NCBI GenBank assembly: GCA_009841335.1
Contig: VXLY01000042.1
Span: 1 to 53,339, forward strand
Direction: 5' to 3'
Length of the DNA: 53,339 nucleotides
Origin: Rhodothermaceae bacterium
GTDB taxonomy: Bacteria > Bacteroidota > Rhodothermia > Rhodothermales > Bin80
This document shows, one piece after another, positions 4,657 through 20,023 of this stretch (positions are counted from its first letter, which is position 1; the number at the start of each line of letters is the position of its first letter). A model generated the notes under the pieces. The model saw only the letters and a list, made by a program, of their open reading frames with translations. It was not told where the DNA came from and ran no database searches. A program made the translations under genes and the position numbers.

Positions 4657-7600
4657 TCAAGCATTCAGCATTTCCTGTGCAATGCGCCTGGAATTGATTC
4701 GAAGGAAAGCAGCCATCAGTGCGGGTAAGAGCAGTATCAGGATTGCGGTTGTTACCATAATACCAACGCCTAATGATGCCGCAAACGGGATCAGGAATTG
4801 CGCTTGAATTGCAGGCTCCAGGATAAGCGGTACAAATGCCAGAAATGTAGTAACTGACGTTAGCATAATAGGACGGAAGCGGCTCTTAGCTCCTTCAATA
4901 ATTGCCTGCCTCTGCGTACTTCCCTCTCGAATACGCCGATCAATAGAATCCATCATTACTAACGTATCGTTCACAACGACCCCGCTAAGGCCAAAAAAGC
5001 CCAGGAAAGAAACAGCGCTGAGCGGGAGCCCCAGTATCAGGTGACCAAGGATGACGCCAATGAGGCCGAATGGCACGATGGCCATCAAAAGGAATGGTTT
5101 ACGATAGGAACGCAGGGGAATCGCCAACAACGCATATATCCCCAGCATTGCTAGGATAAATCCACGGTTGAGTGCATCCAGAGACTCCAGTTGTTCTTGC
5201 TGTTCTCCTCCAAAGGAATAGGTTAACTCGGGCTCGGAAGCGGTTATGTCTGGAAGGAATGTATGTTCAAGGATCTCATTGGCCCGCGATCCAGAGATCA
5301 CTTCATCATTCACATCTGCTGTAACGGTTACAATTCGTTGCCCATCTTTCCGCCGAATGACTGGGGGGGATGTTCCCATCGTCATCGTGGCGACTTGATG
5401 GATCGGTACCTTCCCCCCTTGTTGCGTCTGAATCAAATATCCTTCGACATCCGTGATTGCTTCCCGCTCACTCTCAGGCAGGCGCGTATAAACCCGAACT
5501 TCTTCTTCGCCTCGTTGCAGTCTTACCGTCTCCACTCCAAAAAAAGCTGACCGTACCTGTTGTGCGAGATCTTCGACGGTGAGCCCCAGTGTTCGTGCTT
5601 CAGGTCGAAGCCCAAGTTGAATCTCCTTGACTCCGGGGGCATGATCCGATCGGATATCAAAGACACCGGCCACACTATACAGGTCGGTCACAACTGAATC
5701 GGCAGCAATAGTCAGACGCTCTGGGTTTGGATGAGATAGAACAACCTCCACAGGATTCCCCAGATTGATGACATCTCCACTGAAAGCAATTCCCCGGACA
5801 TAGGGCAAGATTCCCACCTCTTCCCGCCAAGCCTGCATAATTGTAATGGTAGACATATCCCGTTGCTGTGCATTCAGTAACTTGATTTCAATTCCGGCAA
5901 CATGTGACTGGGGATTCATGGTCGGAGATGAATCGAGTCCTCCTCCTTCAACACGAGGGCCTTGACCTATCGCTACGACCACCCCCGCCAGCAGTGAGGG
6001 GGCACCCTCCGGCCTTTCCTGGTCCAGACGCTCGATCACCCGTCTGCCCGCAGCTTCGAGTTCCAGTGCAACTTCGAGAGTTCTCTCTGCAGGCGTTCCC
6101 TCAGGCATTTCAAGCGTAGCAGTGACAAAATCGCCCTCTACTACCCCGACAAGCGTAGTTGGAAGCACGCCCGCCGGTACTAGCGACACACAGAGTACAA
6201 ATAAACCAATGGTTCCCGATATAATTATTGCGGGATAATCAGTAGCAAAGCGAAGAGCACGATTCAACGGCCCCCGCAGGAATCTGGTCAGTCCATTATC
6301 CACAGAGGTTCGGACACGAGAAAAGAACTTATCCACAAAATTGGATGGCGACCATTCTGGACCTGGTAGGTGAGACAGATGTGCTGGTAGAATGAATATT
6401 GCTTCAATGAGAGAAATCACCAGCATGCCAATCATAATCGCAGGCAATGCAAACCACACTTCTCCAATACCACCTGGAATAAAGAGTAGAGGCGTGAACG
6501 CCGCTATTGAAGTGAGGACTGCGAAGGTTAATGCCGTCTTGATTCTTCGCGTTCCCCGAATCGCAGCGACCGGTCCAGGGAGCCCAGTCATGCGCTGAGA
6601 ATAGATTCGTTCGGCTACAACAATGGCATCGTCCACTATAATGCCGATTGCTAGGACGAATGCGAAAAGTGACTGGGCATTGAGTGGCAGATCAAGCCAA
6701 AGCATAACCGCCAAGGCGCCTACACCAGAGGTGACCAGACCGAAAATAACCCATATTGCAAGCCGGATCTCAAGAAAGAGGGCCAGCGAAATGAATACTA
6801 AGATGAGGCCCAGAAAACCATTCCGAACCAAAAGACCTGCGCGCTCTGCATAGACAGGAGAATCATCGTTCCATACAGTGATCCCGATACCATCGGGAAG
6901 CGAAGGCAGGATCACCTCCTGAACATGCTCATTGACTGTTTCCGAAATCGTTTTAACATTCTCATCTTCTCCTCGAAAGACTTCCACGAAAACTGCCGGC
7001 GTGCCGTGATGGCGGACAATCGTATTGGTTTCCTGGAATCCGTCCCGAATTGTTGCAATGTCTCTAAGGTGCACAACCGAGCCGTCGCTTTCGGCAACAA
7101 TGACGATCTCCTCAAAATCAAGCTTATTGTAATTCTGACCAATAGTCCGTACACGGACCTCGGACTCCCTTGTGTCAATGCTCCCGGCAGAAAGATTGAG
7201 CGAGCTTTGGCGAACAGCATAGGCAATGTCTCCCAGCGTCAACCCGAGCGCTCGCAATGTGACGAGTGACACCTCAATAGAAATCTCATAATCCCTCGTG
7301 CCACTGATTTCAACGAGAGATACATCGGGTAAAGTTTTTAATTCATTTCTAACTTGGTAGGCAAGTTCTTTCAGTGCCTGTTCGGTGGCATCACCGAAAA
7401 GCATCAGTCGAATCACGCTGGTTCGGCTGTCCATTTCCCAAAACTGGGGGCGCTCGGCTGTAGCCGGAAATGACTGAATTTGTCCGACAGCAGCCTGCAC
7501 TTCGTCCATCGCCTCACTTAGATTCGTGCCGGTTCTCCACTGAACTCTCACTGATGCCACCCCGGGAGCAGCCAGAGATCTGATGGACTTGACATCCTCC

Positions 7601-7854
7601 AGTGTCTCAATTTGCTCTTCAATCTTAACAATGATAGATTCTTCGATCTCTTCTGGTGTAGCCCCTGGGTAGGCCATAAAGACCTCAATCATGTTAAAGG
7701 GGACTACTGGCCAGCCCTCCCGCTGAAGACCTCCAAGTGATACAAGGCCCAAGGCGATGATGCCAAACATCAACAAGTTGGGGGCAATCCGATTACTCGC
7801 CATGTAGGCGATTGGCCCTGCCGGCTCACCCGAATAGGGGCCCTCCTGATTCAT
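4657..7854 (-). CDS. RND efflux pump, inner-membrane subunit (AcrB/HAE family)
   Basis: A 1065-residue proton-driven exporter of the resistance-nodulation-division superfamily, of usual AcrB-family length. It shows the duplicated layout: TM1 near residue 28, a large periplasmic porter domain, a TM block at about 330-480, a second TM (about 545-565), a second periplasmic domain and a final TM block (about 880-1055). The TM4 motif GIIVDDAIVVAERI holds the paired aspartates of the proton relay. The early AYPGATPEEIEESIIVKIEEQIETLE block is typical. The adaptor gene lies 171 bp upstream on the same strand, so the two form a transport unit. No TolC-like outer-membrane partner is in the window and the substrate cannot be told from sequence. 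Confidence 0.95.
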   Translation of the reverse strand: MNQEGPYSGEPAGPIAYMASNRIAPNLLMFGIIALGLVSLGGLQREGWPVVPFNMIEVFMAYPGATPEEIEESIIVKIEEQIETLEDVKSIRSLAAPGVASVRVQWRTGTNLSEAMDEVQAAVGQIQSFPATAERPQFWEMDSRTSVIRLMLFGDATEQALKELAYQVRNELKTLPDVSLVEISGTRDYEISIEVSLVTLRALGLTLGDIAYAVRQSSLNLSAGSIDTRESEVRVRTIGQNYNKLDFEEIVIVAESDGSVVHLRDIATIRDGFQETNTIVRHHGTPAVFVEVFRGEDENVKTISETVNEHVQEVILPSLPDGIGITVWNDDSPVYAERAGLLVRNGFLGLILVFISLALFLEIRLAIWVIFGLVTSGVGALAVMLWLDLPLNAQSLFAFVLAIGIIVDDAIVVAERIYSQRMTGLPGPVAAIRGTRRIKTALTFAVLTSIAAFTPLLFIPGGIGEVWFALPAIMIGMLVISLIEAIFILPAHLSHLPGPEWSPSNFVDKFFSRVRTSVDNGLTRFLRGPLNRALRFATDYPAIIISGTIGLFVLCVSLVPAGVLPTTLVGVVEGDFVTATLEMPEGTPAERTLEVALELEAAGRRVIERLDQERPEGAPSLLAGVVVAIGQGPRVEGGGLDSSPTMNPQSHVAGIEIKLLNAQQRDMSTITIMQAWREEVGILPYVRGIAFSGDVINLGNPVEVVLSHPNPERLTIAADSVVTDLYSVAGVFDIRSDHAPGVKEIQLGLRPEARTLGLTVEDLAQQVRSAFFGVETVRLQRGEEEVRVYTRLPESEREAITDVEGYLIQTQQGGKVPIHQVATMTMGTSPPVIRRKDGQRIVTVTADVNDEVISGSRANEILEHTFLPDITASEPELTYSFGGEQQEQLESLDALNRGFILAMLGIYALLAIPLRSYRKPFLLMAIVPFGLIGVILGHLILGLPLSAVSFLGFFGLSGVVVNDTLVMMDSIDRRIREGSTQRQAIIEGAKSRFRPIMLTSVTTFLAFVPLILEPAIQAQFLIPFAASLGVGIMVTTAILILLLPALMAAFLRINSRRIAQEMLNA

Positions 7855-8025
7855 CAGTTCAATCTGATTCTAGGTTCTGAAAGCAACACGTAAGAGATGA
7901 ACTGATCAACTTTAGTCTGAATGCTCATTTTGCCGGGGCACCGTTGATCAGAACTTGGGAATATCTCTTCGCTTTGTGATGGATGAAACACCCAGATCGC
8001 ATGGCCTCAGTAGACTGTAATCCCC

Positions 8026-9219
8026 TTATAATTGGGTCCGAACAGCCATCCCATCAATGGCTGCGCGAACTCCACTTATAACTACTTGTTGTCCTTCCTC
8101 GAGCGGGCCTGTAAGAAAAACTTCATCCTCTGATCGCTGCAGAACTTGCACAGGAACACGGTTCAGTACATCGTTGCTTACGACCCACAACTCAGCGTCT
8201 GGTTTGAGAGCAGATCGCCGTACCCTGAAATATTGGTCTGGGACCATGCCATCTATCTCGACATTCACAAACTTACCGATCAATAGAGGTGGGGCGCTCC
8301 TCGACTGAGTGACATCTTCCGCGTTCAAGGCTAATCCAGCTGTGAACGGACGAGGCACGCGAATGACTACCTCAACCGTGCGCGTCTGCTCTTTCAATGC
8401 TGCCTCCGCACGATCCACATAACCCGCCCACGAATAATGCTGCTCGCCATACTTCGCGTTTACACGAGCTGAAATCCGCCTGCTTTGAGTGCTTGGTCTT
8501 AATCCCCAGAGCCCAGGAATCAGTGCTGCACTTTCGTCTGGAAGCGATACCACAACCTCAACGGTGTCGATACTATACAAGCGTCCTACATTTTGGCCGG
8601 CCGACACGAACTGTCCTACCGCAATTGACTCGCTCAACACCGCGGCCATAAAGGGGCTATAAATGGCGACTCTAGAAAGATGTAATTCGGCTTCAACGAG
8701 TTCAGCCCGATCCCTGTCCAGCGCGGCCTCAGCAGCTGCTATTTGGGGCTCCCACAACGCCAGGGGGCTGGGTTGTCCTGTATTTCCTGCATTTTCCCAC
8801 TTTTCGAACTGTGTCTTCGCAATATCAGATTCTGCCGTCACACGCATTAACTCAACTTCTTGAGCGGCCACGTTGGCACGTGCCCGGTCTACTCTACCCA
8901 AATAATCTGCATCATCAATCCGAAATAAAACCTCACCCGTGGACAGCAGTCCTCCACTCTGAAAGGAAGGATTCACCCATACGACTCTGCCGGAGATTTC
9001 CGCAGTCACGTCCACTTCCGCATACGGGCGTACAGTGCCTCCGCCATATATCGGGATAGGTCCCTCTCCGCTCATAACGGAATCGGTAGTTACAAATGGG
9101 GCACGTGAAGGAACCTCCTGGCGGGCAGTTTCAGGCCTGTTGACCACGAGAATGGCAGCAATGGCAAAACACCCGACAAGGATAATACCGGCGACCAAAA
9201 AGCTACGTCTTCTACCCAT
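8026..9219 (-). CDS. RND efflux periplasmic adaptor subunit (MFP/HlyD family)
   Basis: A 397-residue membrane-fusion protein that links the RND pump to an outer-membrane channel. An N-terminal membrane anchor or signal (RRRSFLVAGIILVGCFAIAAILVVN) is followed by a barrel-sandwich half starting near VDVTAEISGRVVWVNPSFQSGG, an alpha-helical hairpin (about 105-180, RARANVAAQEVELMR...DRAELVEAELHLSRV), the second lipoyl half (VAIYSPFMAAVLSE) and a C-terminal beta-barrel/membrane-proximal domain. A cysteine sits within the anchor (VGCFA), but I read this as a transmembrane segment, not a lipobox. It is the first gene of the adaptor-pump unit. No regulator gene can be recognised upstream. Confidence 0.93.
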   Translation of the reverse strand: MGRRRSFLVAGIILVGCFAIAAILVVNRPETARQEVPSRAPFVTTDSVMSGEGPIPIYGGGTVRPYAEVDVTAEISGRVVWVNPSFQSGGLLSTGEVLFRIDDADYLGRVDRARANVAAQEVELMRVTAESDIAKTQFEKWENAGNTGQPSPLALWEPQIAAAEAALDRDRAELVEAELHLSRVAIYSPFMAAVLSESIAVGQFVSAGQNVGRLYSIDTVEVVVSLPDESAALIPGLWGLRPSTQSRRISARVNAKYGEQHYSWAGYVDRAEAALKEQTRTVEVVIRVPRPFTAGLALNAEDVTQSRSAPPLLIGKFVNVEIDGMVPDQYFRVRRSALKPDAELWVVSNDVLNRVPVQVLQRSEDEVFLTGPLEEGQQVVISGVRAAIDGMAVRTQL

Positions 9220-10797
9220 TGGATCGTGTAAAACTTAAAATCTCTCGATAGTCGCAAAAAAGCTTCCTTTTCTTATGAGGGAACAACTCATATTCGGACG
9301 CCTCCAGTTCGGTAAATATTTTTGCACTGGAATACAGGCATTGGTAAACCAAAGCCCGTCCCAGAATCCCCTTTGAGCTCATAATGGCTGTGATGAATCC
9401 CGATAACATATCATTGAATATACCTGCTGAATCCGCAATCAAAGTGCTGTGAACAGAAATTAACCTTAGATCACAATTCTCGCGCAAAATTTTGTAACTC
9501 AGAGTTTTGCTACGGTCTTCCCGAGAATTTACGAAACCGCCTTACATAAAATAGCTCGCACGACCATGTTTGATTGCTTTGATCGTTTCCAAATCATCGG
9601 TGCTCATGGCCAATTGCGCGAATGACAAAGCGACTTCCTTCCATACCTGCTCTATTTCACACGATCTGCAAAAGAGCACAGATTGGGAAGCTTTGGCAAG
9701 CTCATTGCGAGGCTCCTTGTTGGACATCGGTCGGGACGGGTTGCATGATTTGCGTGGATCAACAGATAATCGCTGATGGCAGATATAAGATGCTCTCCTG
9801 AAGAATTGCGCCTGCGACCCGTTCTAGGGATATGACTGGATTAGAAGGGGAATTGTCCGTCTGTCAATCTTACCTCCACATGTACAGATCACGCACGCCC
9901 TCTGTCCATAGAGGGAATGATTACCATCTGAGCACATGCCGAAGTATCCTGACACGTTTTGTACATCTCCAAGGTAGTCATGAGAAGACCGTATCCATCC
10001 AAAAGAATTGCCGTCGTGAACCCTATAGCCAGGTCACTACATTGCACTTCAAATTCCGGACAGCCAGCTAGGTACCACCAACTTCCATTTTCGCATTTAG
10101 ACTAGCGCCACAGCACCCGACAGAGTATCCAGTAAAATATTCACGCTCCATATTGGGCTTTATTGGTAGCGTCCAGTTTCGCTCCGAATTGGGCAACAGT
10201 ATTTCCAGAGGCCATGTTTTCAAATGATAAATTGAGCTCCTTTTTGAGCAGTAGCATAGAAATACATGCGAATGAGCCTTTGTGGTTTGGGTAAACTTCT
10301 TCTAACCTTATGGTTGGAGCAACTCAGGCTACTAGGTTCCTGGTACAGCGTAATTCAACTCTTTAACTCCATTTTCGCGTGCCGCCAATCTTGCTTTTAT
10401 GCCCACAAGATATGTTTTTCCTGTTCTCGTGGTGAGCTATAATCTCTTCATTTGTAAGTCACCATGCCTAACCGATATCATTCCCACGGTAATATCATTC
10501 GGTTTCGTTAAATTACAGTTGATGGTAAGGCGAAAGAGTACTTTTTGCAGCTACTTAACCCCGTCATTGAAATCTACAGTAAGGAGCTACCCGGATTGGG
10601 GAGTTTTGGGTTTCCTCGCGGCTTTCTCTGATCACGATTGCACTTCCTGTTTGTGTATCTTCGTAAAACAAGGGCATTCAGGGGGCTGCCCATGTCCTGG
10701 TCACCAAATCGCATTGGGCGAGCCCCGAAAACACTCAACTAGGAATCCAGTATAGTATACGGGAGACACGTACCTGCAATCTTTACAGGGGATCACA
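9220..10797. other. 1.6-kb gene-poor stretch upstream of the GPP34-P450 gene
   Basis: No convincing gene is visible. The open frames are short (minus strand 9212-9487 and 9542-9727; plus strand 9832-10071 and 10399-10755), match no family I know, and have low-complexity or Cys/His-rich chance composition. The 91-codon minus-strand frame overlaps the adaptor start by 8 nt, so a short upstream gene cannot be fully excluded. The stretch may be decayed sequence or a long regulatory leader. It contrasts with the otherwise tight gene packing of the window. Confidence 0.5.
10787..10791 (+). promoter_or_regulatory. Shine-Dalgarno AGGGG for the GPP34-P450 gene
   Basis: AGGGG lies 6 nt before the ATG at 10798. 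A clear Shine-Dalgarno is uncommon in Bacteroidota-type genes, and this one supports the chosen start. Confidence 0.5.
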
Positions 10798-12828
10798 ATG
10801 AGCGAAAACGTCACTTTATCTGAGATCAGTTTTGCCGAAGAACTGATTCTTCTCATGTTAGACGAGAAAACTGGCTACCTGGAAGTTGTCCCCGATTGGC
10901 AATTTTCTTGCGTATTGGCGGGAGCTCTGATATCCGAGCTCGCACACAAAGGGCGAATTGATACAGATCTGGAATCACTTTATTTGGTTGATTCCACTCC
11001 AACAGGAGACGAGCTGCTTGATGTTACACTCCGGGATATTGAAAAGTCTGAGAAGGTTCAGGATATCCAATACTGGATTGAGCGAAATGCCCAACGAGTT
11101 GATGACATCATCACGACTTCATTTGATCGCTTGGTAGAGAGGAACATTCTTGTTCATGAACTAGGAGGATTTTTCGGCCTCAGGCGCTCAGTTTCCCGTT
11201 CGGGTACATACCCATCCAGTGATTCGTCCGTTCGTCGAGAAGCAAAAACGCGAATCCTGCACATAATATTGCACAATGATATTCCAGATCCCAGAGATGC
11301 GATTCTCATTGCCTTGGTGCATACACTCGGGGGGTTCAAACTCCTGCTTGAAGAAGAAGACTACGAGGAAGTGTTGGACAGGATCAAATTGGTTTCTAGG
11401 CTGGATGTTGTGGGGCGAAAGGTTGCCGCGGCAGTTGATAGCAGTACATTCCAACCCAGGCGGGCAGCCATAAGGACCAAACCCATTCCGAAGGTTCGAA
11501 TCAGTGATGTTTTAGGGCGGCGCGATTTTATTGACGGGCATGTCGCGAAAGGACTCTACAGGATCTACAACCAGTATGGACCAGTCGCGAAAATGCCTGC
11601 CAAAGTGCAAGGCGTTCGCCTATTTGCAGTGATGGGGGCGGAAGCAAACCAGTGGATCAATAGGAATGCCAGATTTTATTTGCGCTCTAAAGAATACATC
11701 GTAGACTTTGAACACGCGTTCGGTTCTACCAGAACTCTGCCGGGCTCAGACGGTGCCAATCATTACCGAATGCGCAAGGCGGTGAAAGGCAGCTATTCTC
11801 GTTCTGCACTGGCAAACAAATTGTCGGATTTGTACCATCACAGCAGGATATCCATGAGCAAATGGAAAGAGGGTGATGCCTTTCCGATGATTGATGTAAT
11901 TAGAGCGTACATGGCCGATCAGATCGGCCCTCTAGTAATTAGCACTGACTGCACCAACTTCTCCAAGCAACTGCTGGACTATGAACATCGTGCACTTGTC
12001 GTGCACGTTACGAAGGTGTTACCCCGATTCATGATGAGAACGCCTAAGATGAAGCGTTATGGGAAGCTGGTGAAAGAATTGAGTGAGAATGTTATCCTAT
12101 CACACACGCCAGGACAGCGCAAAGGACAACCCATTGATATCGCTGATGCGTTTCTGGAACTCCACAGGAACGATCCTCAGTTTATGTCAGAGACGGACTT
12201 GACTTTTCCTATGGCTGCAGGTATGGTCGCGGCTATTTATGTAGGCGGAGGAATATCTTTTGCACTCTACTGCATGATTCGAAATCCGGAGGTATATGAG
12301 GGTGTCTACAAAGAAGCTGAGAAGCTTTTCGGAAACGGACGCATGCCCAAAGAAGAAGATTTCAATCTCAGCAACACGGATGTTACCCATCGTCTCATTT
12401 TGGAGTCAACTCGAATGTATCCCGTGATACCGTGGCAATTAAGAGCAGTCGTGAATCGATTTGTGATTGAGGGCTACGAAATCCCCCCCGGAACACGACT
12501 GGTTATGTGCCATACCGCAACTCATTATGATGAGACTCTCTTCAAAGATCCGTACAAATTCGATATAGACCGTTACTTGCCGGAACGAGCTGAACACAAA
12601 CAGCCCGGGGCTTATATGCCATATGGTCTTGGTACGCACACATGTCTAGGACGTCGCTACACGGACCTCCTGATGGTTGCAAACATTTTGCTCATTGCGT
12701 ATCACTTTAAGCTGGATCTGCTGCCCAAAGAACGCGAACTCAAGATCAATCCGTTTCCGTCCTGTGCCCCCAGAAAAAACGTTAAACTCGTTATCCGAGG
12801 GATCAGGAATCCGATACCCAGCGCATAA
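10798..12828 (+). CDS. GPP34 (GOLPH3-like) domain - cytochrome P450 fusion protein
   Basis: A 676-residue two-domain protein. Residues about 10-215 match GPP34: FAEELILLMLDEKTGYL, LAGALISELAHKGRID and DSTPTGDELLDVTLRDIEK are the family's hallmark blocks, with a later IPDPRDAILIALVHTLGG. Residues about 235-676 are a complete P450: C-helix HYRMRK, I-helix near 475-490, K-helix ExxR at E536-R539, PERF-like YLPER (593-597) and the heme loop YGLGTHTCLG with ligand Cys616. The first heme-loop residue is Tyr, not Phe. The I-helix reads AAIYVGGG where the family normally has (A/G)Gx(D/E)T, so the acid-alcohol pair for O2 activation appears absent. No signal peptide or N-terminal TM is present; the GPP34 half could supply membrane binding (inference). 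No redox partner gene is nearby. The convergent neighbour is a sterol methyltransferase homologue. Confidence 0.9.
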   Translation: MSENVTLSEISFAEELILLMLDEKTGYLEVVPDWQFSCVLAGALISELAHKGRIDTDLESLYLVDSTPTGDELLDVTLRDIEKSEKVQDIQYWIERNAQRVDDIITTSFDRLVERNILVHELGGFFGLRRSVSRSGTYPSSDSSVRREAKTRILHIILHNDIPDPRDAILIALVHTLGGFKLLLEEEDYEEVLDRIKLVSRLDVVGRKVAAAVDSSTFQPRRAAIRTKPIPKVRISDVLGRRDFIDGHVAKGLYRIYNQYGPVAKMPAKVQGVRLFAVMGAEANQWINRNARFYLRSKEYIVDFEHAFGSTRTLPGSDGANHYRMRKAVKGSYSRSALANKLSDLYHHSRISMSKWKEGDAFPMIDVIRAYMADQIGPLVISTDCTNFSKQLLDYEHRALVVHVTKVLPRFMMRTPKMKRYGKLVKELSENVILSHTPGQRKGQPIDIADAFLELHRNDPQFMSETDLTFPMAAGMVAAIYVGGGISFALYCMIRNPEVYEGVYKEAEKLFGNGRMPKEEDFNLSNTDVTHRLILESTRMYPVIPWQLRAVVNRFVIEGYEIPPGTRLVMCHTATHYDETLFKDPYKFDIDRYLPERAEHKQPGAYMPYGLGTHTCLGRRYTDLLMVANILLIAYHFKLDLLPKERELKINPFPSCAPRKNVKLVIRGIRNPIPSA

Positions 12829-13226: not shown

Positions 13227-14261
13227 CTATTCGGGCTTACGAGCCAAAAAACAATACAGCGGTGTGAAGATACCAGTTTTACCACCCTCGACATAGGCAT
13301 CAGCCGTCCAGTCCATAAATCGGAAGACTTCTGCCGTACCCTTTGGAAAAAACCGGACCATCTCGGCCAGCTTTGCCCCTGCAACCATCGCTCGTCGGCC
13401 CTGTGGAAGCCTGAACAAAACGTTACCCAACATCCCGTGCCGACCCTCCATGGGTTGATACCATGGTGTGGATCCCTCCCCCTCAGACACCCCGCGATCC
13501 ACCCCCTCGATGATTTGGAACCCAGCCGCTTCAAGCGCCTGATTCACTTCCCCAAACGTGGCGATATCCTTCAGTGCAATGCCGCGCTTGAGGTTACGCT
13601 TAATGTCCTTGTGCCGGCTGTCATTGGGATCGAACTTGTCCGTCAGACACATCTCCTGCCCCCAGAACAGAGCTCCTGGTTTCAGTACACGAAATATCTC
13701 TTCAAACGCACTTTGCTTATCCGGGGCATGGCACGTTGACTCGATGGCATATCCCCGGTCGAAAGTATTGTCTTCAATGACACTCATATCCATGAAGCTG
13801 CACGCCAAGTAATCGACCATGTGATCGAGTCCAGCCTCGGCATTCAACTTTTTCGCCTTTTCCAGCTGGATTTTGTTGATGTTAATTCCTACCACGCGAG
13901 CGCCGGACTCACGAACGACACGGCGCATCGGGCCGCCGATTCCACAGCCAATATCAACCACCGCCATGCCCGGCTTGATATCCAGCTTATCAATCATCAA
14001 CCGCTGATGGCGAATCTTAGAGTCCTCCAAGGTCTCGTGCGACGCGAGGGGTGCGAAGTGCAGGGATTCGCCCCAGCTCCACACCATAATCTCGTTGTAG
14101 AGATCGTAGTAGTCTTTGACCAGTAGGGCATGGTCGTAATCTCCCGAATCAACGGCTTCGGGCGTCGCTCGCTCTATCCAACCCTCAAAGTCTTGCACAC
14201 GACGGGCGACATTGGATCCCCGGTACGCATCCTTGAGTCTTTTCGATAGCTTCCATGGCAT
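13227..14261 (-). CDS. Sterol C-24 methyltransferase homologue (ERG6/SMT family)
   Basis: A 344-residue SAM-dependent methyltransferase matching ERG6-type enzymes over its whole length. Visible blocks: the aromatic substrate region YYDLYNEIMVWSWGESLHFA (51-70), SAM motif I VVDIGCGIGGPMR (101-113), the signature YAIESTCHAPDK (171-182), FRVLKPGALF (190-199), and the C-terminal sterol-methyltransferase domain with TPWYQP (265-270) and GGKTGIFTPL...ARKPE (326-344). The last block is nearly the same as I recall for yeast Erg6. Family members add a methyl to C-24 of a sterol side chain; bacterial relatives may act on other isoprenoid lipids. Known sterol producers also need squalene epoxidase and oxidosqualene cyclase, and neither is in the window. 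A strong GGGGG Shine-Dalgarno precedes the ATG. Confidence 0.9.
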   Translation of the reverse strand: MPWKLSKRLKDAYRGSNVARRVQDFEGWIERATPEAVDSGDYDHALLVKDYYDLYNEIMVWSWGESLHFAPLASHETLEDSKIRHQRLMIDKLDIKPGMAVVDIGCGIGGPMRRVVRESGARVVGININKIQLEKAKKLNAEAGLDHMVDYLACSFMDMSVIEDNTFDRGYAIESTCHAPDKQSAFEEIFRVLKPGALFWGQEMCLTDKFDPNDSRHKDIKRNLKRGIALKDIATFGEVNQALEAAGFQIIEGVDRGVSEGEGSTPWYQPMEGRHGMLGNVLFRLPQGRRAMVAGAKLAEMVRFFPKGTAEVFRFMDWTADAYVEGGKTGIFTPLYCFLARKPE

Positions 14262-17934: not shown

Positions 17935-19244
17935 GATGCTACAAGACCTATGCCTACATCCATCACGTTTGTATGTGTCGGGCCAGTGATTAGAAGTTGA
18001 TTCGTGGCGCTGAGACAGTTATATGCATCATTTGCTTCGAGGGCCACATACGGATCTACTCCGGCCGCTAATGCCATAGTAACCGTATCCGGGGTAACCC
18101 ATCCCCCCGCGGCATCTGTAGGGCCGTCAATCCCATCCGTACCACCAGAAAGCAGAACAGCATCCAAAGATGCCCCCTCAAGCACGCATGCTGCAGCCAG
18201 CGCTAATTCCTGGTTGCGTCCACCCTTTCCACTACCCCGTACGGTAACTGTGGTTTCACCACCCCAAATTATGCATTGACTCGGTTTTAGACGCAAAACA
18301 CGTCGCGCCATGGCTGTTCCCACGTTTCGTGCTTCGCCACATACATCATGATATACCGATACAACCTCGTATCCCATATTCTGAGCGGCGGCTTCAGCCG
18401 CCTTTAACGCGTCAGTATTAGAGGCCAATAGCCGAAAAACAGACTGCTTCAAAAGCTTCGCATTTGGCTTCGGTGTATCTGGCAAACTACCTTCAACTCC
18501 AAGCTGCAGATACTGGCGCACCTCCGTTGGTAGTTGCAAATCCAGTCTCTGGATTATATCTGTAGCGTCCTGCCAAGTGGTTGGATCACCCACCGTGGGC
18601 CCACTCCCAATTACCGAACTATCATCACCGATAACATCCGAGACGGCCAACGTGACCACATGCCCTGGCCACGCAGCTTCTGCAAGGCGCCCGCCCTTTA
18701 TGGCAGATAGATGCTTGCGGATCGTATTCAATTGATGAATGTCCGCGCCGCTCTGTAAAAGCATCTGGTTTACCGCACGGATATCCTGCATAGATAAGCC
18801 CTTGATCGGGGCACTCCACAACGCCGAAGCCCCACCGCTGAGTAATACGATGAGTGTTTCATTCCGCCTGCAATTCTTTGCGACACTCAGAGCACGCTCC
18901 GCCGCGCACTGACTATCAATATTGGGAATGGGGTGTCCACCTTCGGATACGTTGATGGCCTTGGGACGGGCTAATTGATCTGGAAAGGAATCTATATATC
19001 CGTGCGGTACAACCACCTCGCCTTCGAAAGAAGCTTTCGGAAAGCACTGCTCGAGCGCTGCTGCCATAGTCATAGCTGCTTTGCCCGCACCGGCAACACG
19101 ACACGAACCGAAAATGGGCAAATCAGTCGCCTGCTCAAATATTCCATGAGCACTTACGCTGTCTACCGCAGCATCGAATATTCTCTTTGCCACGAAACCA
19201 AACTCTGAGGCCCACAAATCGCTATTTTGAGGCTCATTCATCAT
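17931..19244 (-). CDS. gckA: Glycerate 2-kinase (MOFRL family)
   Basis: A 437-residue kinase converting D-glycerate plus ATP to 2-phosphoglycerate, feeding serine, glyoxylate or sugar-acid catabolism into glycolysis. Blocks: [70 protein letters not shown], and the C-terminal MOFRL core [18 protein letters not shown]...DAYNCL followed by [17 protein letters not shown]. Family members were long labelled hydroxypyruvate reductase (TtuD), but this fold is the kinase. It is the first gene of the gckA-DUF255-thiolase operon. Its ATG lies only 8 bp from the divergent NIPSNAP start, so its promoter must overlap that gene. Confidence 0.94.
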
Positions 19245-19252
19245 TTACTCCT

Positions 19253-20023
19253 ATGCATCGCCGTTCTTTTATGTCAGCCGTCCCATTGGCTGCCGCACTA
19301 CCATTAGTACCCTCAGATATTCCCGGGAAACAACAACAGTATTTTGAACTGATAACGTATCACACGAATGTTGGAGCCAGTAAATCGCGTGTTGCCGATT
19401 TTTATCGGGATGTCGCATTACCTGCTTACGGAAGACTGGGCATCGGACCAATAGGTGTATTTACACCTATGTATGGACCCAACCAGCCATCTCTCTACGT
19501 TATACTCCCCCATCAAAGCATGGACTCTGCCATGCGAAGCAGTACATTGCTCATGGATGATGTAGAATTCCAGCGCTTGGGGACAGATTTCTTGAATGCC
19601 ACACTTGACAGTCCAGCCTATGTACGACGGGAGCATCAACTCATGCGTGCTTTCGTGGATATGCCGCAGATAGCAAAACCCGCCAGCGGACCGGATAGAC
19701 TATTCGAACTGCGAATCTATGAGAGCCACAGCACTATCGCAGGACAGAAAAAAATTGACATGTTCAACGAAGGTGGGGAGATTGCCATTTTCCACAAGAC
19801 TGGGCTTGATCCAGTATTCTTCGGCGAGACACTCTATGGACCTTTAATGCCAAATTTGACCTATATGCTGGGTTTCGAAAGTATGTCTGACCGAGATGCG
19901 GCATGGGCAAGGTTCATTGTTGATCCAGAATGGATCGCACTGCGCGATGATCCCACTTATGCTGACACCGTTTCAAATATTACGGATTTCATTCTTCGTC
20001 CCCTTCCATTTTCACAGATTTGA
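19253..20023 (+). CDS. NIPSNAP-family exported protein
   Basis: A 256-residue protein with two ferredoxin-like dimeric alpha/beta-barrel repeats. The second has the clear NIPSNAP block LFELRIYESHSTIAGQKKI followed by EIAIFHKTGLDPVFFGETL and LTYMLGFESMSDRDAAWARF. The start MHRRSFMSAVPLAAALPLVPS looks like a short twin-arginine-type or Sec signal, so it is probably exported. I chose the ATG at 19253 over an upstream in-frame start at 19187, because that would run into the divergent gckA gene and bury the signal peptide. NIPSNAP proteins have no defined reaction. It is the first gene of a plus-strand series; the amidohydrolase follows after 1 bp. Confidence 0.88.
   Translation: MHRRSFMSAVPLAAALPLVPSDIPGKQQQYFELITYHTNVGASKSRVADFYRDVALPAYGRLGIGPIGVFTPMYGPNQPSLYVILPHQSMDSAMRSSTLLMDDVEFQRLGTDFLNATLDSPAYVRREHQLMRAFVDMPQIAKPASGPDRLFELRIYESHSTIAGQKKIDMFNEGGEIAIFHKTGLDPVFFGETLYGPLMPNLTYMLGFESMSDRDAAWARFIVDPEWIALRDDPTYADTVSNITDFILRPLPFSQI

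Follow-up and report, generated by a model that had tools for sequence, protein, structure and literature searches.

A GPP34–cytochrome P450 fusion protein of bacteria that appear mostly sponge-associated and its candidate place in a shared, putatively sterol-modifying gene set

Introduction

GOLPH3-fold domains are common in bacteria and almost uncharacterised. For GOLPH3 itself, W81, R90, R171 and R174 were identified as the ligands of PI4P (PMC13408441). A bacterial GPP34 (GOLPH3-like) domain was described in SCO4440 of Streptomyces, a stand-alone protein whose gene adjoins a carboxypeptidase gene and which is tied to peptidoglycan changes (PMC12402492). An earlier note on this DNA called the bacterial GPP34 proteins uncharacterised; given the mutant phenotype of SCO4440 (PMC12402492), this now needs slight qualification.

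Among cytochromes P450, a natural fusion of a bacterial sterol-type enzyme is represented by the CYP51–ferredoxin of Methylococcus capsulatus (6mcw, 7jj1). CYP51 also stands at the centre of the steroid clusters (CSGs) of Ircinia symbionts (PMC9531527), the core of which is formed by ERG24, a free-standing CYP51 and an oxidosqualene cyclase (PMC9531527). The sterol genes of sponge symbionts are horizontally shared across phyla, often together with a sterol C-methyltransferase gene (SMT) (PMC9531527; PMC10070321), and SMTs of sponge symbionts are proven sterol methyltransferases (PMC10070321).

The protein analysed here is encoded in a 53,339-nucleotide stretch of a Rhodothermaceae genome, hereafter the window, and joins an N-terminal GPP34 domain to a P450. 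It has the fold, the heme cysteine and the ExxR motif in common with CYP51, CYP46A1 and the CYP120-like branch of the P450 superfamily, but is only about 16–20% identical to them, carries the GPP34 domain and, in its main clade, has a tyrosine in place of the I-helix pair. The fusion partner in Methylococcus capsulatus is a redox domain (ferredoxin), whereas here it is a GOLPH3-fold domain and no redox domain was recognised. The GPP34 half shares the Pfam family, the fold and a hydrophobic hairpin tip with GOLPH3 and Vps74; it differs from them in being bacterial, in the loss of the PI4P pocket residues and in its covalent link to an enzyme. It is bacterial like the domain of SCO4440, but SCO4440 is not joined to an enzyme. 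The gene set around the fusion resembles the CSGs in its apparent horizontal sharing and its SMT; according to the main-text descriptions of those clusters (PMC9531527; PMC10070321), it is set apart by gene content, with Rieske (KshA_C), SMT and RND genes present and the cyclase missing in the window genome. The oxidosqualene cyclase that marks a CSG was not found in the set of the window genome. No mention of a GPP34–P450 protein was found in a library of open-access papers; within that library the earlier note's statement that no described protein joins these domains stands, and the novelty is provisional.

Results and Discussion

Domain structure of the fusion protein

The features of the locus are collected in Table 1. 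The uninterrupted 676-codon frame that had been claimed is open throughout, and exactly two Pfam families, GPP34 and p450, were found in the 676-residue protein by hmmscan. GPP34 (PF05719) was matched at residues 13–214 with 116.8 bits (cut-off 29.1, E 1.7e-33), and p450 with 131.9 bits (gathering score 22.8, E 3.7e-38), the best stretch being residues 413–654. The AlphaFold2 model of the whole protein was confident, with a pLDDT of 87.9 and a pTM of 0.79. The GPP34 identity of the N-terminal half is thus borne out by both the Pfam score and the fold match, and the case named as decisive against it, a lack of any GPP34 score in residues 1–215, is excluded.

Table 1. Features of the GPP34–P450 locus in window coordinates.
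Feature	Position	Strand	Evidence or remark
AcrB-type RND permease, 1065 aa	4657..7854	-	Conserved neighbour
HlyD-type membrane-fusion protein of RND pump	8026..9219	-	Conserved neighbour
Possible ribosome-binding site AGGGG	10787..10791	+	Read directly, few bases upstream of ATG
GPP34–P450 fusion ORF, 676 aa, ATG start	10798..12828	+	Open frame, Pfam, homologue alignment
GPP34 (GOLPH3-like) domain, residues 13–214	10834..11439	+	Pfam PF05719; fold matches 9qpq, 3kn1, 2zih
Beta-hairpin, residues 118–128, equivalent to GOLPH3 membrane hairpin	11149..11181	+	Model, profile and homologue alignment
Linker, residues 215–230	11440..11487	+	pLDDT low at 221–224
Cytochrome P450 domain, residues 231–676	11488..12825	+	Pfam, AlphaFold2 model, structural alignment
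I helix, residues 474–485 (AGMVAAIYVGGG)	12217..12252	+	Acid/alcohol pair absent, Tyr481 instead
ExxR motif E536–R539	12403..12414	+	Motif present in sequence
Heme-binding loop YGLGTHTCLG, C616	12622..12651	+	Motif present; loop recognisable in homologues
Sterol C-methyltransferase-like gene (SMT), 344 aa	13227..14261	-	Pfam Sterol_MT_C 58.8 bits, cut-off 21.7; homologue adjoins fusion in many phyla

In the window genome (3.49 Mb, 121 contigs, 97.5% complete), two GPP34 matches and two P450 genes were found, and they coincide: both pairs correspond to two fused ORFs, the first on the window contig and the second on contig C62. Orthologues with 87–88% identity are likewise fused in two other assemblies, and the single frame is kept in 104/104 aligned fusion homologues. 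The dN/dS values of the window gene against its two nearest relatives were 0.04–0.15 for the GPP34 half and 0.16–0.18 for the P450 half; such low values in both halves denote purifying selection, and hence both are maintained. A join created by assembly, which the earlier note had itself raised, or by a frame error is ruled out by the fused C62 paralogue, the fused orthologues, 80 fused loci in other genomes and the purifying selection on both halves. The GPP34–P450 fusion is a genuine single protein, and the observation is confirmed in a stronger form than first reported.

Distribution across phyla

One genome per GTDB species was scanned, and the best 80 of the 342 matched loci, as ranked by match, were kept; the count of fused loci covers these 80 and is silent on the other 262. 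All 80 kept loci, from other genomes, carried an intact fusion of 668–800 aa with a recognisable heme loop. By record title, about 10 phyla were represented among them: Rhodothermota/Bacteroidota, Acidobacteriota, Chloroflexota, Pseudomonadota, Latescibacterota, Gemmatimonadota, Nitrospirota, Nitrospinota, Actinomycetota and Verrucomicrobiota. On the protein tree the phylum labels changed 17 times, against a minimum of 10, and Acidobacteriota, Pseudomonadota and Rhodothermota each had at least three label changes on starred branches. This mixing suggests gene transfer, although the genomes are MAGs and the pattern falls short of proof. No record in the PLSDB plasmid collection had a place covering 80% of the fusion protein.

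Three of the loci are symbiont bins of Aplysina aerophoba by accession (bin80, bin22 and bin75; PMC5649159). Twenty-two loci bear the codes RHO, COS, CAR or APA, which would fit the sponge species of PMC8163846. The carriers mostly appear to be marine-sponge bacteria, the host link of most of the MAGs resting on such isolate codes.

Heme site and I helix of the P450 domain

Residues 226–673 of the model superposed on solved P450 structures with Z values of 34–37. The sterol P450s CYP46A1 and CYP51 headed the structural matches, but the Z values of sterol and non-sterol P450s were close, and the substrate of a P450 cannot be deduced from its fold matches. CYP51 was also the best sequence-profile match, and the CYP51–ferredoxin of Methylococcus capsulatus was among the top matches by both profile and fold. 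The identity of the P450 half was 16–17% to this protein and to human CYP51, and up to 20% to CYP51 of Acanthamoeba. Neither an identity of at least 40% nor the CYP51 signature was found, the I-helix motif being different. The fusion is not a CYP51, in view of this low identity (about 16–20%) and of the separate CYP51-like gene (466–490 aa) in cyclase-bearing relatives. The best NCBIfam matches, all below cut-off, were terpene P450s (pentalenene oxygenase and albaflavenone monooxygenase).

C616, E536 and R539 were invariant in a 39-member alignment, whereas the canonical acid/alcohol pair of the I helix (D/E-T) was not found in the window protein. The motif ASxY-xG, with Tyr at position 481, was present in 97 of 104 proteins, including that of the window (AAIY-VGGG). 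In this main clade Tyr481 was invariant (97/97) and was accompanied by a one-residue deletion at the site of the pair; the other seven proteins, the C62 paralogue among them, had DTT, HTT or near variants there. The description of the window protein as a complete P450 therefore holds for the fold and the heme site, but its oxygen-activation motif is atypical. The Tyr-type and DTT/HTT-type clades were separated with full support on the protein tree. Moreover, the GPP34 and P450 halves diverged in parallel, which is consistent with a single old fusion event.

The acid/alcohol pair is common but not universal in P450 monooxygenases. Some P450s that lack it are peroxygenases or isomerases (CYP152, CYP74, CYP5A1, CYP8A1), while CYP107A1, which also lacks it, is still a monooxygenase. 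Because the heme cysteine and ExxR are kept and the pair is replaced by Tyr481, oxygen activation in the main clade is probably unconventional, or the reaction is one other than monooxygenation. The more radical form of this idea is that the enzyme is a peroxygenase, an isomerase or a dehydratase and not a monooxygenase, or else that it assists the Rieske oxygenase without being catalytic itself. The invariant Tyr481, the deletion and the precedent of the pair-less peroxygenases and isomerases argue for such a change of chemistry; the example of CYP107A1 argues against it, and the invariance of the heme cysteine and ExxR makes the non-catalytic version unlikely. On balance, this more radical form is held to be less likely than not, though far from remote.

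GPP34 domain and possible docking

The first 231 residues, modelled alone, gave significant matches only to human GOLPH3 and yeast Vps74, with TM values by query length of 0.71 (9qpq_B), 0.68 (3kn1) and 0.66 (2zih, Vps74). The profile alignment of the GPP34 half to GOLPH3 (PDB 3kn1) had an E value of 8.7e-15. In this alignment the equivalents of W81, R90, R171 and R174 are V31, A41, D102 and I105 in the window protein. The R171 position is occupied by Asp or Glu in 98/104 homologues and the R90 position by Ala, Val or Ile in 100/104. In 96/104 a Trp is kept at a distance of three residues from the W81 position; it could substitute for W81 only. Since none of the four pocket residues is retained, PI4P binding in the manner of GOLPH3 is rejected for the GPP34–P450 family, as judged from the aligned sequences. 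The hairpin tip, however, is conserved (F125 in 98/104 and W/F126 in 94/104), and may allow peripheral docking to a membrane or to a protein.

The earlier note had taken the GPP34 half as a GOLPH3-like lipid dock that substitutes for the customary N-terminal TM anchor. The first part survives only in that the Phe-Trp/Phe hairpin leaves membrane contact possible; the PI4P pocket is lost and the domain is net acidic, with 24 basic and 40 acidic residues. The second part was not upheld, because soluble P450s of bacteria are not known to carry an anchor of this kind, and no obvious TM stretch was seen in the 676 residues. A lipid-dependent dock as in GOLPH3, bringing the P450 to a membrane marked by phosphoinositides or other lipids, would draw on the GOLPH3 fold, the conserved hairpin tip and the fusion of GPP34 elsewhere to membrane transporters, but the replacement of all four PI4P positions, one of them by acidic residues, and the excess of acidic residues leave it rather unlikely.

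Stand-alone bacterial GPP34s were 52–53% identical to the GPP34s of the fusions, as against about 20–22% for GOLPH3; a recent eukaryotic origin of this half is hence unsupported. Most GPP34 genes in the samples of Gammaproteobacteria and Actinomycetota were stand-alone or had other partners. GPP34 ORFs of 621–635 aa in other Gammaproteobacteria are GPP34–MFS transporter fusions and not further P450 fusions; such transporters were observed in two genomes, G445 and G742 (L140:7607-9511, +; L141:7462-9324, +; L142:6135-8030, -). This architecture points to GPP34 as a module that can be reused in membrane-associated proteins.

Gene neighbourhood

Neighbour families were derived by ORF clustering around the 80 loci, and the counts are lower bounds owing to GC-rich stretches. 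The recurrent neighbours were a Rieske/KshA_C protein (43 loci), an AcrB-type RND permease (38), an SMT (36), a flavin amine-oxidase-like protein (28), HlyD (25), a TolC-like OEP (16) and an MMPL protein with a sterol-sensing domain (14). At the 47 well-flanked loci, which have 7 kb or more on either side, the Rieske gene was present at 31, the SMT at 24, either at 38, both at 17 and neither at 9; at least one member of the cluster (Rieske, SMT or RND efflux set) was found at 44. In G003, a relative, the genes run Rieske–fusion–SMT–HlyD–AcrB on a single strand. In the window the set is rearranged, with RND and HlyD (4657-9219, -), the fusion (+) and the SMT (13227-14261, -), and the Rieske gene, the only KshA-type one in the window genome, lies on contig C93.

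The neighbouring Rieske protein has both the Rieske and the KshA_C domains, and the SMT both the methyltransferase and the Sterol_MT_C domains; the activities of both are predicted ones. The closest solved relatives of the Rieske protein are 3-ketosteroid 9alpha-hydroxylases, the KshA-like label denoting a modest similarity (72.6 bits on the C-terminal domain of a 366-aa representative). Within the order, the SMT is confined to fusion-bearing genomes (13/13). The proposal of the earlier note that the P450 acts on a lipid gains support from these Rieske and SMT neighbours, which point to a sterol substrate.

Several further arrangements were observed. The MMPL gene with a sterol-sensing domain (L098:13309-15786, -) is a conserved neighbour in loci of Chloroflexota and Acidimicrobiia, and seemingly occupies the place of the AcrB-type RND genes of other phyla. 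A NIPSNAP-domain protein of the window (19187-20023, +; listed TTG start) overlaps a downstream amidohydrolase-like ORF and is kept in the two nearest relatives. The DTT-type GPP34–P450 paralogue has an Acyl_transf_3 membrane acyltransferase after it in two genomes of the genus (L128:9866-13119; L132:9121-12603), a context unlike that of the window gene; the DTT-type paralogue of the window genome likewise adjoins an acyltransferase. In the relative G006, a GPP34–P450 has a sulfotransferase on one side and a lycopene-cyclase/FAD-type flavoprotein on the other (L135:8450-12762).

Such acyltransferase, sulfotransferase and flavoprotein neighbours indicate that GPP34–P450s serve more than one lipid context. 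They also favour the idea that the substrate of the whole set is some other terpenoid or a polar lipid, for which the SMT-like and Rieske proteins were recruited, as do the terpene P450s among the sub-cut-off NCBIfam matches. The joint occurrence of Sterol_MT_C and KshA_C in many phyla nevertheless fits sterols best, and an SMT was present in all 7 cyclase-bearing genomes of a sample of 20 fusion carriers; this idea is accordingly held to be unlikely.

Candidate source of the substrate

No squalene or oxidosqualene cyclase was found in the window genome; in its genus, 5 of 10 genomes have one. In the 16 genomes of the window family, every full-length P450 gene is a GPP34 fusion save for the CYP51-like genes of 466–490 aa, which lie on the cyclase contig in four genomes (G005–G008) and occur in a fifth, G009. 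A classical sterol cluster was observed in G006 (L129:7132-14095), with an SMT, a stand-alone CYP51-like P450 and a 1139-aa ORF; the latter has an FAD-oxidase-like N-terminus and a cyclase match, and looks like a squalene epoxidase–cyclase fusion.

In the sample of 20 fusion-bearing genomes from other loci, 7 had a cyclase over the cut-off, and 13 did not; 7 of these 13 had an SMT, and 6 of the 20 had neither gene. The absences come mostly from draft genomes, but four chromosome-titled fusion-bearing records also had no cyclase over the cut-off, and one such record (G117) had an SMT. Among the records lacking a cyclase over the cut-off, G115 had partial cyclase matches below it. Because the window genome has an SMT and a Rieske gene but no cyclase, an imported sterol is the likely substrate, and the simplest reading is that the cluster modifies sterols obtained from the host or from other symbionts.

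Steroid catabolism, in which the P450 and the KshA-like Rieske protein would start or feed 9,10-seco degradation with host sterols as food, is improbable: the Rieske family does resemble 3-ketosteroid 9alpha-hydroxylase and sponge metagenomes reportedly figure prominently in a study of bacterial steroid catabolism (PMC5790920), but the reading is weakened because HsaC, the one catabolic marker covered, was not found over the cut-off in 23 fusion-bearing genomes and had no match at all in the window genome, and the SMT and RND efflux neighbours point to modification and export.

Conclusion

A heme-thiolate P450 that covalently carries a GOLPH3-fold domain would, in the explanation proposed here, belong, as one of several enzymes, to a sterol-modifying set that bacteria, mainly symbionts of sponges, share by horizontal transfer. 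Its partners would be the KshA-type Rieske oxygenase, the sterol C-methyltransferase and the RND efflux system. In the cyclase-less window genome these enzymes would act on sterols from the host or other symbionts, and the pump may move the sterols or their products, RND pumps being common and their cargo not readable from sequence. The P450 would oxidise or otherwise rearrange the sterol by non-canonical oxygen activation, because Tyr481 replaces the acid/alcohol pair, and GPP34 would hold it at the membrane surface or at a partner protein via the hydrophobic hairpin and not via PI4P. We give this explanation as a whole about an even chance (roughly 0.5). The interpretation of the earlier note is upheld in one half: the P450 probably acts on a membrane lipid, with a sterol as the likeliest candidate, but lipid recognition of the GOLPH3 type is lost.

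What is new, provisionally, is a P450 fused to a partner not found described, together with an unusual I helix. A wider claim can be offered only tentatively, namely that a new type of P450, with a GOLPH3 fold and a Tyr I helix, was transferred through about 10 phyla of the sponge microbiome and remodels sterols obtained from the host or other symbionts. If true, the GOLPH3 fold would have a phosphoinositide-independent role in presenting lipid enzymes at bacterial membranes. The joining of this fold to an assayable enzyme makes its role without phosphoinositides testable. Furthermore, the findings point to an undescribed sterol-modification gene set of sponge symbionts. They bear on who makes the unusual sponge sterols that serve as animal biomarkers, and cyclase-less symbionts could still rewrite the sterols of their hosts.
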